64,000 bases of DNA from Entamoeba invadens IP1 (Eukaryota > Evosea > Mastigamoebida > Endamoebidae), in contig NW_004191832.1 in NCBI RefSeq assembly GCF_000330505.1, forward strand, positions 125,309-189,308. The letters are read 5' to 3'. Made by a program: the position numbers and the translations under genes. Every line of letters begins with the position of its first letter. Position 1 is the stretch's first letter. The notes beneath the pieces are model-generated. The model worked only from the letters and a program-made list of their open reading frames with translations, had not been told where the DNA came from and searched no databases. This document shows positions 17,955 to 35,503 of this stretch, one piece after another.

Positions 17955-20294
17955 CAGTTAGCCGAATCAACCTTCTGCAACGAAACAGCCTTCTGCAGAT
18001 TGTTTTTCAAAAATAACCATAAATAATAACAATTTAAACCATTTTTAATAGTATTTTTTTCAACTTCAAATGGATATGTTTTTATTTACAGTAATTTATT
18101 AATACACCTTCTGCAGTATATAATTGGTCTTATAAATATCAAAAAGTTAAAATAAAACCAAACTAAAAATGAACAATACTCAGTTAACGAACTTTACTGT
18201 TTAACAAGTGATTGACATGTATTGATCATCAAGTCATTCAAGTTCAATCATGTCTTGTTCATATTGCAACTGATCCAATTCTTCTTTTGTTAAAGGCCTT
18301 CTTATACCATTTTCATCAAACAATGGCATACTTAATATTTCTTTATCAGTTTCACACAATGTTTGTTCGGTGATAACTGAAACTTGCGTTTCTTGGGTAT
18401 TTGTAACAAACAAATTATTTACCGATTAGTTTGGAACAGACATTGGTGTGCTTTTTTCAGTTTCGATTGGTAACCACTGTGTTGATTCAATTTTATTGTA
18501 TAATTCGATTACTGTTCTTTCGTTTACATCTGTCGCTCTACACAATTCAATTTTGTTTTCAGGAGCTCTGAGTTTTTCCAAAACTTCTAATGGTGGAGTT
18601 GAGATAAGAGTTTTAAGAAAAACACTTGCGCTTTCAATGTTGACATAAACTCTTTTTCTTCCGTTGTTGATGATACATTTATATCCAGCACACAAAAGTG
18701 ACGCCTCTATTGTTTCTGGAACTGCTTTTTTATAGATGGTTTTCATTACTTTGTTTATCTGACAAGTAATTAGTGTTCCCCATTTGGCTTTTGAATCCTT
18801 TATTGCTCGTTTTGTTATCGGATCTTCCAATGAATTTATCCACTTTATTAATGATTTTTCTGATTTGGATTGGTCTAATATTGGTTGTTCGTCGCTTGTT
18901 CTTTGTTGTAAATCATTTGAAATTTTATCTGAACACTGGGTTTTTAAATTGATTTGTTGAGTGGTTTGACAAGTGAACAGTGGTGTAGTCGTGTTTGAGC
19001 ATTTTTTAACAACACCAAATAAACACAAATCAAGTGGTTGTGATAAATGACTACTATGAGGTACTATAAAATGCAATATTATGTTGTGCGATGCAAACAA
19101 TGATTTTAATCTTTCATCAATATGTGCCGAACAATTATCTAATATAATAACCGCTTTCACGTCACTGTTTAAACCAACTTCGGATCTTCTTTTTACAATG
19201 TAACCCAAAACGCGTTCAATCATCCAAGTTTGAAAAAAATATATTTGTTAATAAAACCACTCGGATATGAATAAACTGTCAAATCTGTAAAACTCAATGA
19301 TACTGAATTGCTAAAATGTTTGTTAGGAATCACCATACCAGGAGTGACAAATTTACCGTCAGCTGATATGCAAGCTATTACAGTTGATCTTTTGCAATTT
19401 CTTGATATTCCAACTTTATGTACAACTTTGGTTTTGTCGTCAAACACTCTAACTTTTTACTGTCGGAGTATTCATTGAAACCTATTTCGTCGATGTTAAA
19501 AACTAATTCGAAAGGTGTTCCATTGAAGTTTTCAGCAAATGTTATATAATTGTCTAACACATCTTGTGGTTTGCATTCAACCCTTTCCAGTTCGTCTGGA
19601 TTAACAAAAACAGTTGTTTTATTGTGGTATTTTGCAACGTGTTTTACAATTTCGTCAATTGTTATATTGAATGTTGGTTCAAATTGTTCGCAAATTGAAT
19701 GAATGAAATATGGAGTTACTGCTTTTGAGTTTCTCTGACAATATTTAAACACTTCACTAATTGCTACATCCATTTCGAAAGTAAAATTTGTGTGTTTTTT
19801 TTGGTTCAATTGTATATTGTTTTAAGTGTGTGTGAATGGATCCTCCTGTTAATCCGAACAAAACACCCAATGTTGCCTCGCTTGTTTTGTAAGTATTGTA
19901 TATCATCTGTATCTGATTTACTTCTGTTGTGTTCATGAAAACGTCGTCTTCCAATTGTAAATACAATTCTTCGGATTCTTTAATGTTTTTAGGGATGGTT
20001 GTTGTTTTTTCGTCAACATACTTTTTGATTTTGAAATATTTGAAATCATTTCAATTCGGCTTAAAGCGGGGTTTTGTTTGCTCTTTTGTATTAATGTTTC
20101 AAAGTCGATTTCATAATTACCATCGATTATCTTACGTTTTATTTCATCAACAAATGTATCAGTGTTCATTAATAATTAATTTTAGTTTAAACTCATAATC
20201 AAAATAAAAAATCGAAATTTTATGTAAATTATTATCCGATCCAATAATAGCTGCAGAAGGTTGATTCTTTGCAGAAGTTTATTTCGTCTAGCTG
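17955..20294 (-). mobile_element. Pogo-like (Tc1/mariner superfamily) DNA transposon with broken transposase
   Basis: The 2340-bp element is bounded by TA dinucleotides (17953-17954 and 20295-20296). Ends are imperfect inverted repeats of about 45 bp beginning CAGTTAGCCGAATCAACC on the left and CAGCTAGACGAAATAAAC on the right. Each TIR contains CCTTCTGCA (or a one- or two-base variant) twice at 18-bp spacing: 17971 and 17989 on the left, 20252 and 20270 on the right in reverse. One more copy lies inside near 18110. The flanks rejoin to match an uninterrupted relative at about 31697-31730, which confirms both borders and the TA duplication. A frameshifted DDE transposase lies inside on the minus strand. 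Confidence 0.9.
18234..20169 (-). pseudogene. Pogo/Tigger-type DDE transposase, frameshifted
   Basis: Fragments in successive minus-strand frames form one transposase: 20169-19933 (MNTDTFVDEIKRKIIDG), 19966-19757, 19809-19378, 19447-19220 and 19223-18426, with the last frame continuing to 18234 through one in-frame TAA at about 18424. The catalytic core is readable: ELVFNIDEIGFNEYSDSKK (first Asp), VKAVIILDNCSAHIDERL (second Asp), and PHSSHLSQPLDLCLFG, the typical pogo/jerky SxxLQPLD block with the third acidic residue. A helix-turn-helix DNA-binding part is expected at the N-terminus but is badly broken. At least three frameshifts (near 19.95, 19.44 and 19.23 kb, the last in a T run) make this copy inactive unless they are assembly errors. 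Confidence 0.85.
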
Positions 20295-20296
20295 TA

Positions 20297-20600
20297 TAGT
20301 TTATGGTTTGAAATTATTTTATTGTTCATGTTTTGAGAACTTAACCTTATGTTAAATTATTTAACCATATATCTAAATTAAATAATAAAAACAATTAACA
20401 AGTAAATGATTATATATAATAATTTCAATAATTAAAAATACTATATTATAATTATTAATATATATAGTTTTTTAATTGTTTAAATTTTAATATAGAAGGT
20501 TTATTTCAGAGAGTTTTTTTAATACAAAAAAATGGAATGACATTATTAAATAATGATAACCAAGAATTAATTTTTTTTAATTTGATTCCCATTACCGTTT
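20297..20600. repeat. Dispersed parental repeat, copy 1 (interrupted by the pogo-like element)
   Basis: Together with ~17929-17954, this ~300-bp stretch (from AGTTTATGGTTTGAAATTAT to GAATTAATTTTTTTTAATTT) recurs at ~31697-34140. There it lacks the pogo insertion but is split by two other elements. Similarity stops at TTTGATT on the right and at ATAATCATTTATTTACTTA on the left. No coding potential and no TIRs of its own are visible. Confidence 0.85.
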
Positions 20601-22773: not shown

Positions 22774-24951
22774 TAATTGAAAAACTCTATCTTAATTCAT
22801 ATAACTTGAATATATTTAATAATTGTTATAATATTCAAATTTTATTGGTTCAAATTTTCTAAATTCTGATAATATTTTAAATTATAAACAATGAAAAAAT
22901 AAACAAATATTAACAATGTTATTATATTCTACAATGCATTATTCACAAATATGACACATTTCTCGGACTCACAGCTAAATGCAACTTATAATTTAAGCAC
23001 AATTTATTGAATTTGGTGTCCTCTAATATAAAATATGCATATAGTTGCAACTGCATATCATGTAAGAAATAAATATACTAATTGTAATTTGCAATTAATA
23101 ATTATTATTTAGATAATTATGACGTTTTGTCTGTTTTATTTTATCGCACCAACGTGTAAAGATAAACTTTATAAACAACATTAATAATTCTTTACAACTC
23201 GTGACATAATAATAAAATATATACTGTTGTTAACAACAACATTAAATGATAATATGTAATCATATTAATAAAACTGTCAAATACACAAAAATACTATTTC
23301 AATTTTTGAACAACTGATATTTATTAAATTTAACAAACGTGAGATAGAACTACAAGTAATGAGTTGAAATGATGAAAATGTAAAAAAATTCAAAGCTCAA
23401 AATAATAATATTTTGATTTTGTTTGTTGTAACTTGTTAAGATATTAAAAAATACAACATTTTTTCTGAAAGAAAGTGATGAGGTTAAAAGTGAAACCTTT
23501 TTTTCAAACTATTGTTATTAAATTGTCTAAAAATAACAAACTATAAATGTCTCCATATAATTTTATTGTAATAGTTGTGGTGTTATCAAAACATAATTGT
23601 ATGATTTTGTGTGTTGTAATATTAATGATAATAATAATAATATTAATGTAATGTTTGTAAATAATATCTAGTTTATATGTATTTATCAACAAAAAGCCGT
23701 TGAACAAAAATAGCGAACATCGACGCTCTAACATTATAAAATAATCAACAATTATTTCTATATGATTTTATTTTATTTTCATGGAATATCACACCCATTT
23801 AACAAAATTAACATTCGATTAAGAATTTAATTATGACTCACCTTTTATTTTATTTGATTTGCGTAACAAAGCGAAGTTGTCAACCACAACCCTATCAAAA
23901 ATTCAACAATCAAAAAATAATTGTCATAACAGTCATTATTCATTTAAACACATCAACGATTACATGTTTATTTACATTAATGTATATATTTTTATATACT
24001 ACAACGTTAAATTAAGTTTATAACTATGTCGTGTTAATTATTGGAAACAATGTATATTAACCTTAGCAAGTCAACTGAATCAACTTTTTTTGTGCGAAGG
24101 TGAAATCTGGATAAGATTTATCTAGATCATAATTTATTTTTAGAATAATTAAAAATAAATTCAAAACACGAAATCGATTAGTTTTCGCGCAAACTACTGG
24201 TCTTTACAGACCCATGTTTTCTATTTTCCATGTGTTCAAAATAGTCAACACTTGCTGTTACGAGACATACACATGAATTTTCATTAGAGCGTTTCGGAAT
24301 TTATCAATTTTTCATTATTTAAATTGGTTTGTGACACGCAGTTCTTAATTTAAGATGTTTTTAGTTCAAATACAAAAATAAAAAAAGTGACTTATTTTAA
24401 GTGAAAAAATCAAGGATATAAATTATCCAGTTTTCACTTCGTAAGGTTAAATTTTTTTTTAATTATTTTATTCTAACAATACAACTATTTTTTTACTCGA
24501 GTAAATTTTTATAACAACAAAAAAATTAAAATACGATATAGTATCATTATTAATATCTATATTATATTAAAAATATGCGGAATGTTCGATTAATTATATT
24601 ATATATAACAATCGATAACAACTAATTTATCTAAATTATTTTTAGAATTTTTTTATTGTTACGGCAATTTTTTCTAGTTGTAAATGATTTTTGAATCTTT
24701 CATTTTAAATGCTTTTTTGATATTTTTTTTCTATTTATATAAAATAGTTCAATTCTACTGCCTATTGTTTGGTTTTTTGACGAACCATGGTAAAAAAACT
24801 GAAACAATGTTTTTCTAGTGTATCGAAAAATTTCCCGATATATTACAGTTATTAACATAAAAAAAATATAATTAAAAATATAAAAATCATTTATTTTCTT
24901 CATGTTATTTTTTTGTTGATATTTAAATGTCAATTCTAAAAAAATAATCAA
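22774..24951. other. Long AT-rich region without recognised genes
   Basis: 2.2 kb of A/T-rich DNA. Short ORFs exist (for example 24700-24951 minus, 23504-23734 minus) but they are composed of Asn, Ile, Lys, Phe and Tyr and match no family I know. No TIR pair or RNA gene seen. Confidence 0.45.
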
Positions 24952-32801: not shown

Positions 32802-32897
32802 TATTTAAATTAAATAATAAGAACAATTAACAAGTAAATGATTATTAAATATATAGTTAATTGTTTTAAAAAAAATTGTTTTAGTTTTTAATATATA

Positions 32898-34014
32898 CAG
32901 TAAAAATTCTATCAGTGTGTGACTCTATCGGTGTGTAGTTTTGACCAATCAAAAGAGGCCTACACACCGATAGAATATAATGATTTCCCACATATTTGGC
33001 ACCAAAACCCGCAAAAATAATGTCAATTGCAATTTTGTTTTTATTTTAAAAGAGTAAAGACTTGGTAATAAAAACTTAAAAAGAAAAAAATTATCAAACA
33101 AAAATAAATTCAAAAAAGATAAGAAAAGAAAAGCAGAAAATGCTCTTCAAAAAATATTAAACTTTAAATGATAATAAAAAATGCACCGACTTCCACACAC
33201 CAATCACAAGAGCACGCTTGTGATTGGTGTGGTGACAGAATTGATACCACAAAAACTTAACAATTTCAGCAAGAAAGTCACAGATATTTTCGACACATGC
33301 AGACAACCAGCCTGGCGTGCTCATCCAAGTCTTTGAGGGCGAGGCATCTATGACATCACACTGCAACCCGTTTGACAAGGTTGGGTTGTTTGGTATCTTA
33401 TTAGCACCACGTGGAGTCTCACAGTTGAAGTCACATTTGACACAAATGCAAATGGGATTCTGAATGTGTCGGCTGAAAACGAGACAACAGGGAAGAAGAC
33501 TCTTAAAGGAACAGGTGGACAAGATGGTTGCAGACGCAAAAGAGTTCAAGGCGGAGGACGACAAGATGATGACTTTTGAGGCTAAAAATCGACACTCACC
33601 TTATGCTACTTATGTAATAACACAGTGAACAAGCAAATTTTTTCAAAGTTATCAACAAAAGACAAAGAAGCAATCGAGGCCTATGTCAAAGACGTACTTG
33701 AGTTGTAAATTGACAAGAACCAATCAGCACCAAAAGTCTATGTGTTTATACAAAAACACAATGCGTTGTTCTTATTCTAAACAATTAGACAAATTAAAAA
33801 AATTCACAATATTATTTTATGTTTACACGTGTCGCGTTTTTTTTCATAAAAAAACAAAAAAATACATTGTGTCATTTTTCTAGATTGTGGATAGTTTTAC
33901 AAATTTCATGATTTTTTAGTTTTTTTGCCAGAAATTAAAAAAGAAAAGAAAAAAAATTTACACACCTTGGGAAAACCATTTTCATGACTCCACACACCGA
34001 TAGAATTTTTACTG
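32898..34014. mobile_element. TA-flanked TIR element carrying an Hsp70 gene fragment
   Basis: 1117 bp, starting CAGTAAAAATTCTATCAGTG and ending with the near-perfect reverse complement (CAGTAAAAATTCTATCGGTG); TIR about 25 bp, TA duplicated (32896-32897, 34015-34016). The empty site in copy 1 of the parental repeat reads TTAATATATATAGTTTTTT. TCTATC(A/G)GTGTGTG occurs twice at 16-bp spacing at the left end and once inverted at ~32963-32976, a subterminal palindrome. The interior holds a decayed piece of an Hsp70 coding region and no transposase. Confidence 0.9.
33211..33735 (+). pseudogene. Hsp70 substrate-binding-domain fragment inside a transposon
   Basis: Across shifting plus-strand frames, successive Hsp70 substrate-domain motifs appear in correct order: [21 protein letters not shown] and QPAW (canonical TxLIPRN, TKKsEiFsTyaDnQPgv), the EGEASMT / DKVGLFGI region (EGERamT..nllGkFeLtGI), [44 protein letters not shown], then SKLSTKDKEAIEAYVKDVLE. 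Frames change several times and stops interrupt it, so nothing functional is encoded. The ATPase half and C-terminal lid end are absent. The plain reading is capture of a genomic or cDNA Hsp70 segment by the element. A minus-strand ORF over 33157-33564 is only a shadow of this. Confidence 0.9.
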
Positions 34015-34234
34015 TATATAGTTTTTTAATAGTTTAAATTTTAATATAGAAGGTTTATTTCAAAGAGTTTTTATATTGCAATAATAATGGAATGACATTA
34101 TTAAATAATGATAACCAAGAATTAATTTTTTTTAATTTGATTGCCTTGTTATGGAACAACAAATGTAGTAACGTGGCTTTCTTTCATTTCTTTAATTCAA
34201 ATAATTTCATTGTAAACTGAAAAATAGAAAAACA

Positions 34235-35503
34235 ATGGAAACTTTTACAGAACACGACTCACTATTGGAACATCAACCCACTTCTCAAACTACTCAGAGG
34301 CCAGAAACCAACATTAAACCGGAGACTGAAACTCGTGATTTTCAAGACCCAAATTTTGATGATCCACTGAATTACTACGCAGTGTTGGGTGTTCCTCGCG
34401 AAGCAAGTCCAGAGTTAATAAAACGAGCGTATCGTAAACACGCTTTGAAATTCCATCCCGATAAAAACCACAGTCCAAACGCCGAAGGGGATTTTAACAC
34501 AATCAAAAACGCGTATGAAGTTCTTTCTGACGAACAAAAGAAACGGATGTATGACTCCTTCGGCGCAGAGGGTGCACAATATGCTCAGTACATTTGGATG
34601 ATCAAACCATTTGTCTATATTCTCTGCTGTATTTTAGGCTTCTTCATAGCAGTTGCTGCTCTATTATATGACACATGGCTTGTACTCACAATCACCAACT
34701 TAGAGAAGGAATTACATTGGAAAATTTCTGCAGTCAACGTGCCCTTATACATCTTGCTCTTCTTTTACATGTTAAATCTCCCCAACACACGTTTGGGGAA
34801 GGTGTTTGGTCTCATCGAATTTTGCACGGGGTACCTGGGCCTCATTTTGTTCTTTGTGCGTGTTGATTGCAATAAAGGTGATTATCACTTGTGGTTGATC
34901 CCTGCGTACATTGCGTGTTTATTTAGACTGTTAAAAATGCTCCGAGAAGACTTAGGAGACTATGTTGGGCAAGGAGAGAATGGAGAAGTAATTAACATTC
35001 CTCGAAAAAAGCGTGTGGTGTTGCTGAATGGTGTATTAGATCTTCTCGAGAATGTAACTTTTATTGGGTTGATTGTCAGTATTGGTGTTAGTGGTAACGA
35101 GAAAGATTATATGTACGCAATGATATTCTTTGCACTGTATTTAGTCTTCAGAGTGGTGAGATCAGCACTTTTGGATCTTCACTTCTCGCGTATTAAATTG
35201 GTCTATGAAATTGTTGTTTGTCTGTTTTATGCGGCTCAAGGCATTATGTTGGGTTCGGATGTTGGAGTTCGATGTTACAAATATTCCTATGCTATTGCGT
35301 TCATCCCCGCACTTTTATATGGAGTTATTATCACTGCCATTCCTCTCATTGTGTGTCCACTTATTTGTTGCTTCTTACCACCTCTTCTCGAGAAAGTGTT
35401 TGGAAGTGATGATCCAAACACACAACACAGAGAACCAGAGAATCAACACACAAGTCAGCAACCAAGTCAGCAGTACCAAAACACTACTGCTTTACTGAAT
35501 TAA
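34235..35503 (+). CDS. DnaJ-domain multi-pass membrane protein
   Basis: An Hsp40-type co-chaperone anchored in a membrane, 422 aa. The J domain spans about 46-110: NYYAVLGVPREASPELIKRAYRKHALKFHPDKNHSPNAE in pieces, with the HPD motif at 74-76, then YEVLSDEQKKRMYDSFG. After it come about seven or eight hydrophobic segments: FVYILCCILGFFIAVAALLY, VNVPLYILLFFYMLNL, FGLIEFCTGYLGLILFF, LIPAYIACLF, VTFIGLIVSIGVSG, YMYAMIFFALYLVFRVV and AFIPALLYGVIITAIPLIVC. The C-terminal ~35 residues are Gln/Ser-rich. The repeated W..........P.Y/W.. pattern faintly recalls TMEM185-like proteins, which I would not insist on. No signal peptide or ER retention signal is obvious. It likely stimulates an Hsp70 at the ER or an endosomal membrane. 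Confidence 0.85.
   Translation: METFTEHDSLLEHQPTSQTTQRPETNIKPETETRDFQDPNFDDPLNYYAVLGVPREASPELIKRAYRKHALKFHPDKNHSPNAEGDFNTIKNAYEVLSDEQKKRMYDSFGAEGAQYAQYIWMIKPFVYILCCILGFFIAVAALLYDTWLVLTITNLEKELHWKISAVNVPLYILLFFYMLNLPNTRLGKVFGLIEFCTGYLGLILFFVRVDCNKGDYHLWLIPAYIACLFRLLKMLREDLGDYVGQGENGEVINIPRKKRVVLLNGVLDLLENVTFIGLIVSIGVSGNEKDYMYAMIFFALYLVFRVVRSALLDLHFSRIKLVYEIVVCLFYAAQGIMLGSDVGVRCYKYSYAIAFIPALLYGVIITAIPLIVCPLICCFLPPLLEKVFGSDDPNTQHREPENQHTSQQPSQQYQNTTALLN

Follow-up and report, generated by a model that had tools for sequence, protein, structure and literature searches.

Capture of host genes by elements with terminal inverted repeats (TIRs) is best known in plants, and is mostly met with where the transposase has already gone, which makes the process of capture itself hard to observe. 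Pack-TYPE elements have been delimited, in PMC8903248, by TIRs with the target-site duplication (TSD) of their superfamily, no match to a transposase, and a match to host coding sequence of E<1e-5 over more than 50 bp. The element described here resembles such plant elements, notably rice Pack-Mariner, in having TIRs and a TSD, no transposase, a fragment of host coding sequence and several copies per capture, but differs from them in its amoebozoan host, in being of the pogo/Tigger type, and in that its cargo is also found in transposase-bearing relatives. Outside plants, host coding sequence has reportedly been captured by Turmoil-1 of C. elegans, which keeps its captures in the inverted repeats (PMC2572040), and by DNA transposons of a different host, Pyrenophora tritici-repentis, through transduplication (PMC3538342). 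Pack-type and transduplicating DNA transposons are already known, then; the present case is an amoebozoan one of the pogo/Tigger type, in which capture most likely took place in a transposase-bearing element. Among the Tc1/mariner families described from Entamoeba invadens (Gemini, Piglet, Mogwai, Gizmo and Hydargos; PMC2657916), all of which share host and superfamily group with the present family when compared by published text rather than by sequence, one may be identical with it; the text of that paper contains none of the terms hsp70, heat shock, Tigger or pogo. In E. histolytica, Hsp70 genes and transposable elements have been linked by proximity within 1 kb (PMC2886108), whereas here Hsp70 sequence lies inside the element. 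We found no description of an Hsp70-carrying transposon in Entamoeba in the open-licence literature searched.

We analysed a window of 64,000 nucleotides of E. invadens IP1 (contig NW_004191832.1, positions 125,309 to 189,308). An earlier note on this window had proposed a clean, TA-flanked TIR element at 32898-34014, and this was borne out. The element is complete and 1,117 bp long (C186:158206-159322 in the genome); it starts with CAGTAAAAATTCTATC at 32898 and is closed at 34014 by the complement of CAGTAAAAATTCTATC. Its TIRs are 24 nt long (CAGTAAAAATTCTATCAGTGTGTG at 32898-32921 on the plus strand, and 33991-34014 on the minus strand), forming 30-nt arms of 97% complementarity when six flanking bases are included, and TA duplications adjoin them at 32896-32897 and 34015-34016. 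A subterminal palindrome at 32924-32974 (arms 32924-32938 and 32960-32974) repeats the TIR motif. Two regions on the plus strand are common to transposase-bearing relatives of the element, one at the left end (32924-33180, element positions 27-283) and one at the right (33598-34014, element positions 701-1117), with 88% and 86% identity, respectively, to the relative C7. The reading that best accounts for the evidence as a whole, to which we give a probability of about 0.9, is that the window element belongs to a pogo/Tigger-type (DDE_1, TA-targeting) family of E. invadens, as a non-autonomous member shortened by internal deletion. As the earlier note had also stated, no transposase is present: the longest stop-free stretch in the window copy is 147 codons, and a genome-wide search with the C7 transposase as the single query gave at least 95 matches (98 of 101 candidates scored), none of which falls within this copy. 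Elsewhere in the window, a 265-aa frame at 18426-19223 on the minus strand, with a DDE_1 match of 2e-5, is a remnant of another DDE transposase, and a frame at 34235-35503, starting ~220 bp downstream of the element, resembles by eye a DnaJ-domain membrane protein.

The Hsp70 sequence consists of ~536 bp (33226-33761, plus strand, element positions 329-864), corresponding to Hsp70 residues ~411-599 with a broken frame, and 40 bp (33180-33219, plus strand, element positions 283-322), corresponding to residues ~292-305. At the nucleotide level the longer piece is 74% identical to an intact gene (blastn; E 3e-108 in a single-target search with the intact E. invadens Hsp70 coding sequence L049, and 2e-82 for the same 536-bp match against 30 loci), and the shorter piece is 85% identical (blastn, E 3e-7). 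With tblastn the element gave two overlapping pieces in different frames, at no more than 56% amino acid identity. The extent of the Hsp70 part is close to the ~520 bp, read over shifting frames, of the earlier note. A 36-bp palindrome with 15-bp arms (33196-33231) lies beside the junction at which residues ~306-410 are missing; since it is also found in the relative C165b, which retains those residues, it is not a product of the deletion in the window element. All of the Hsp70 sequence is internal and stops short of both TIRs; extension of a fragment into the flanking DNA, which would have spoken against capture, was not seen, and the Hsp70 similarity itself is significant. A search for the donor among the Hsp70s of the same genome, as had been suggested, pointed to the cytosolic genes L048-L050, which are 74-79% identical in nucleotides to the four elements compared. 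There are five intact cytosolic Hsp70 genes, each a single open frame of 653-663 codons; the L048 product matches the E. invadens IP1 protein at 100% over 653 aa, in agreement with the species assignment. Because these are intronless, introns cannot separate capture of DNA from capture of RNA, and for a retro-copy origin, which we considered, there is no signal either way.

Further copies had been predicted, and we found at least 24 near-full copies of the 1.1-kb element, each covering at least 84% of it (40 of 107 candidates scored); the window copy is one of these, and the other 23 are 89-94% identical to it. The TIR pattern has 80 matches genome-wide (40+40), as compared with none (0+0) for the reversed control. 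Both TIRs, with up to five mismatches, were found in 27 of 38 sources, and all 27 of these two-ended elements have TA on both sides. Seven sources have one end only, with an adjoining TA in five and none in C187 and L035, and in the remaining 4/38 neither TIR was found. The window itself contains a paralogous empty site (20370-20590, plus strand), where the joined flanks of the element match at 87% across the junction, although the alignment is poor over the ~45 AT-rich bases on its left side. For another copy, L016, the joined flanks have a counterpart with 74% identity at window 24179-24450, a second empty site; both empty sites lie inside repeats.

These observations bear on the possibility that the copies are Hsp70 pseudogenes multiplied by segmental duplication, their TIR-like ends being coincidental or due to later nesting. 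Pieces of Hsp70 are indeed numerous in the genome (75 matches, several of them with stops), as such a family would have it; the copies, however, share TIR-to-TIR limits and TA duplications, and empty sites exist, so that we hold this account to be highly improbable. In its plainest form, chance TIRs around an Hsp70 pseudogene, we rejected it, for the two-ended copies, on account of the 27 of 27 TA/TA elements and the empty sites.

Some members of the family carry more than the 1.1-kb form. Nested insertions are present in four of them (C23:205761-209959, C6:262619-266065, C182:171495-176373 and C49:74771-78262), three near element position ~170-200 and that in C49 near 61-68; judged by eye, the insert frames are pogo-like in C23 and hAT-like in C6, and the C182 insert has no frame of 80 aa or more. 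The sequences of C36, C182, C6 and C23 were joined from adjacent stretches of one contig, on the assumption of correct assembly. Three mini-elements (L083, L084 and L085; 71, 71 and 87 bp) look like hardly more than the palindromic left end with a right TIR to close it. The TIR pairs retrieved contained only this family, the nested insertions in C6, C23, C182 and C49, and the 71-87-bp mini-elements, with no other cargo; the pairs leave aside 11 single TIR matches (C39, C48, C57, C63, C67, C103, C149, C151, C194, C204 and C213:13467), one of which, C103:8933, sits 0.5 kb from an Hsp70 fragment.

The superfamily of the window element is known from its relatives. C7 (C7:653693-656226, 2,534 bp) shares its ends with the window element and contains a 100-aa frame, a stop and then a 429-aa frame, which matches DDE_1 (PF03184) at 2.9e-30; a match to HTH_Tnp_Tc5 (PF03221), a DNA-binding domain of the CENP-B/Tc5 type, is marginal (23.2 bits against a cut-off of 22.2). 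Of the catalytic triad in DDE_1, D88 and D192 are invariant in all seven aligned rows, and the third D, in QPCD after a 27-residue insertion, is D in six rows and E in P0022. The closest named public relatives are Tigger-4-like; the alignment took in six proteins, with identities of 29-38%. The domain evidence, which comes from C7 rather than from the window copy, and the TA duplications of the 27 two-ended elements argue that the family of the window element (family 1) is of the pogo/Tigger type (IS630-Tc1-mariner).

Interrupted transposases are found in four other members: C36 (3,036 bp), C182 (4,879 bp, including its nested insertion), C72, whose TIRs are degraded, and C55, for which a single TIR was found. 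None of the five frames examined is unbroken (one stop in C7 and several interruptions in each of the other four), which counts against inferring present-day mobility of family 1. Hsp70 is recognisable beside the transposase in four of the five, C55, C36, C182 and C72, where it lies on the start side of the transposase and is directed away from it. Direct search of C7 gave no Hsp70 match at E 0.05, the tail matching at E 0.12-0.18. The end of C7 aligns at 92% of nucleotides with the Hsp70-tail-bearing end of C36, and at the C7 junction A-rich words border the place from which the other Hsp70 sequence has been lost; judged by how it aligns with C36, C7 appears to retain an Hsp70 remnant. The transposases of C55 and C7 are 72% identical, and a capture older than the C55/C7 split would fit these data.

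We compared the limits of the Hsp70 segments within family 1. The residues retained are 273-326 and 426-591 in C36 and C182, 252-326 and 426-591 in C72, 273-395 and 560-591 in C55, 292-591 in C187, 292-561 in C165b, and 292-305 and 411-599 in the window element. The segments begin and end at roughly corresponding places (about residues 273 and 591) but are interrupted by different gaps, as would fit a single capture of ~1 kb of coding DNA, the stop codon excluded; given the shared outer limits, we rejected several captures within the family. In C187 and C165b, which have no transposase match, the left end is joined to Hsp70, and these two look like the step preceding the 1.1-kb form. Trees built separately from the left ends and from the right ends are star-like (median end branches 0.028 and 0.024, 31 of 38 sources each), and few of their inner branches have good support (2 of 27 and 3 of 28); because the deep branches are poorly supported, the order of the deletions rests on shared junctions.

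Most likely, judging from these sequences, a transposase-bearing element made one capture (~residues 273-591), and the 1.1-kb form arose from it by internal deletion and then multiplied. By this reconstruction, the ancestor would have taken up ~1 kb of coding DNA from a cytosolic Hsp70 gene once, perhaps through a repair error or a switch of template at a time when it lay in such a gene or close by; internal deletions would then have yielded the 1.1-kb form, which the transposase of its relatives may have mobilised in trans, in a burst, with the Hsp70 piece a probable passenger without protein function. The related copies look like stages of capture: transposase with Hsp70, Hsp70 with the transposase gone, shortened and multiplied, and, in one copy, most of the Hsp70 lost again. 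The description of the window copy as a pack-type element in the earlier note holds, with a correction as to origin. On TIRs and TSD, absence of a transposase and match to host coding sequence, the window copy agrees with the published definition. Relatives with a transposase, however, carry the same captured segment, so that the lack of transposase is secondary and the non-autonomous form seems to have come, by deletion, from an element that already held the cargo.

Hsp70 also occurs in a second pogo-type family, consisting of a 2.3-kb TIR element (AAGACCTGCGAAATAC...) with Hsp70 residues 389-612 and TA on both sides in all three copies read (L087:1284-3645, L088 and L089). One member, L094 (L094:101-4227, C175:17502-21628; 4,127 bp, TA/TA), has the ends of this family, a 524-aa open transposase frame and Hsp70 389-612; the 2.3-kb form corresponds to it minus ~1.85 kb that contains the transposase. 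Over 268 residues, the L094 transposase and the family 1 transposase share 26% identity. In L094, Hsp70 lies on the opposite strand to the transposase in convergent orientation, as opposed to the divergent orientation in family 1. In better-preserved stretches, the second-family Hsp70 is 81-89% identical in amino acids to intact Hsp70. As TIRs, transposase, orientation, Hsp70 limits and Hsp70 identity all differ from those of family 1, we take the capture as independent. A third repeat, at least 7 kb long (L080:3797 to L081:~3010, across L080, L061 and L081; C51:152846-159862) and recurring, as to its left part, at 13 places, carries Hsp70 36-304 and 475-653; of 17 loci of this type, 14 lack the stretch from ~305/325 to 474/486. 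The DNA to the left of this repeat reads N.

Since this small genome has two families that hold differing segments of the same gene, the randomness of capture targets becomes testable. Hsp70 loci may be a hot spot of capture, where heavily transcribed, open chromatin draws insertions and the cargo brings no benefit; this would complement the deletion-derived origin of family 1, and we hold it somewhat less likely than not. It would account for different Hsp70 segments in two TIR families and for Hsp70 in the third long repeat (in a survey of Hsp70 alone), and it has parallels, as given in PMC2886108, in E. histolytica, where an Hsp70 cluster with 31 members has transposable elements within 1 kb in 30% of cases, and in transposable-element insertions near Drosophila hsp70 promoters, to which the same report points. 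The captured segments, however, are coding sequence and not promoter.

We analysed the codon positions of changes in both families. In family 1, private changes in an in-frame 273-nt block of Hsp70 were spread evenly (24:21:22, p 0.90; 26 of 29 copies, the short rows L033, L035 and L036 being dropped), and all 25 other copies compared share a 1-nt deletion relative to L010. The lack of codon-position bias argues against a protein product from the Hsp70 part, which is probably drifting rather than coding; the suggestion in the earlier note that other copies might be expressed is, as far as protein is concerned, unlikely to hold. In the second family, private changes absent from intact genes (40:22:40, p 0.04) and shared changes (15:10:25, p 0.03) gave ratios to be compared with 1:1:21 and 3:1:25 between intact Hsp70 genes; pairwise dN/dS was 0.22-0.52 (21 pairs, 7 copies), values that taken alone suggest constraint, and five of the seven copies have a frame-shifting indel. 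We lean towards recency as the explanation of this codon pattern.

Exact stretches of at least 27 nt are shared with an intact Hsp70 gene by 15 of 35 distinct elements (28 nt in the window copy, 11 in the reversed control; the 37 entries compared include L030 and L031, which belong to C23 and C6), which permits, rather than demonstrates, action through small RNAs. In E. invadens, 27-nt small RNAs derive from DDE-classed elements (8.1% of unique reads as compared with 4.1% of the genome), with no effect on stress responses, according to PMC4527709. Unannotated transcripts with DDE_1 and hsp70 domains, generally without a single long frame, are reported in PMC4053983, and the Hsp70-carrying elements are a likely source of them.

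It could be argued that Hsp70 cargo is retained because it benefits the transposon, its RNAs feeding the 27-nt pathway or otherwise affecting host Hsp70, or shielding the element. The small RNAs, the transcripts, the shared 27-nt stretches and the presence of Hsp70 in an unrelated second family would agree with this, but the family 1 fragment shows no constraint at the codon level and the four elements compared are 74-79% identical to the closest intact gene; we consider such a benefit quite unlikely. We also think it rather unlikely that Hsp70 is a recurrent, non-random cargo that at least two unrelated pogo-type families captured and then kept while shedding their transposase, because the cargo or its RNA aids their spread or silences or buffers host Hsp70.

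The elements also call for caution in counting the Hsp70 genes of E. invadens. Many open frames of ~540-600 aa give long, weak Hsp70 matches (in C30, C36, C37, C71, C72, C142, C103, C164, C194 and others); the four tested (L058, L069, L072 and L074) are 26-33% identical to Hsp70. Together these frames make up a divergent Hsp70-like family.
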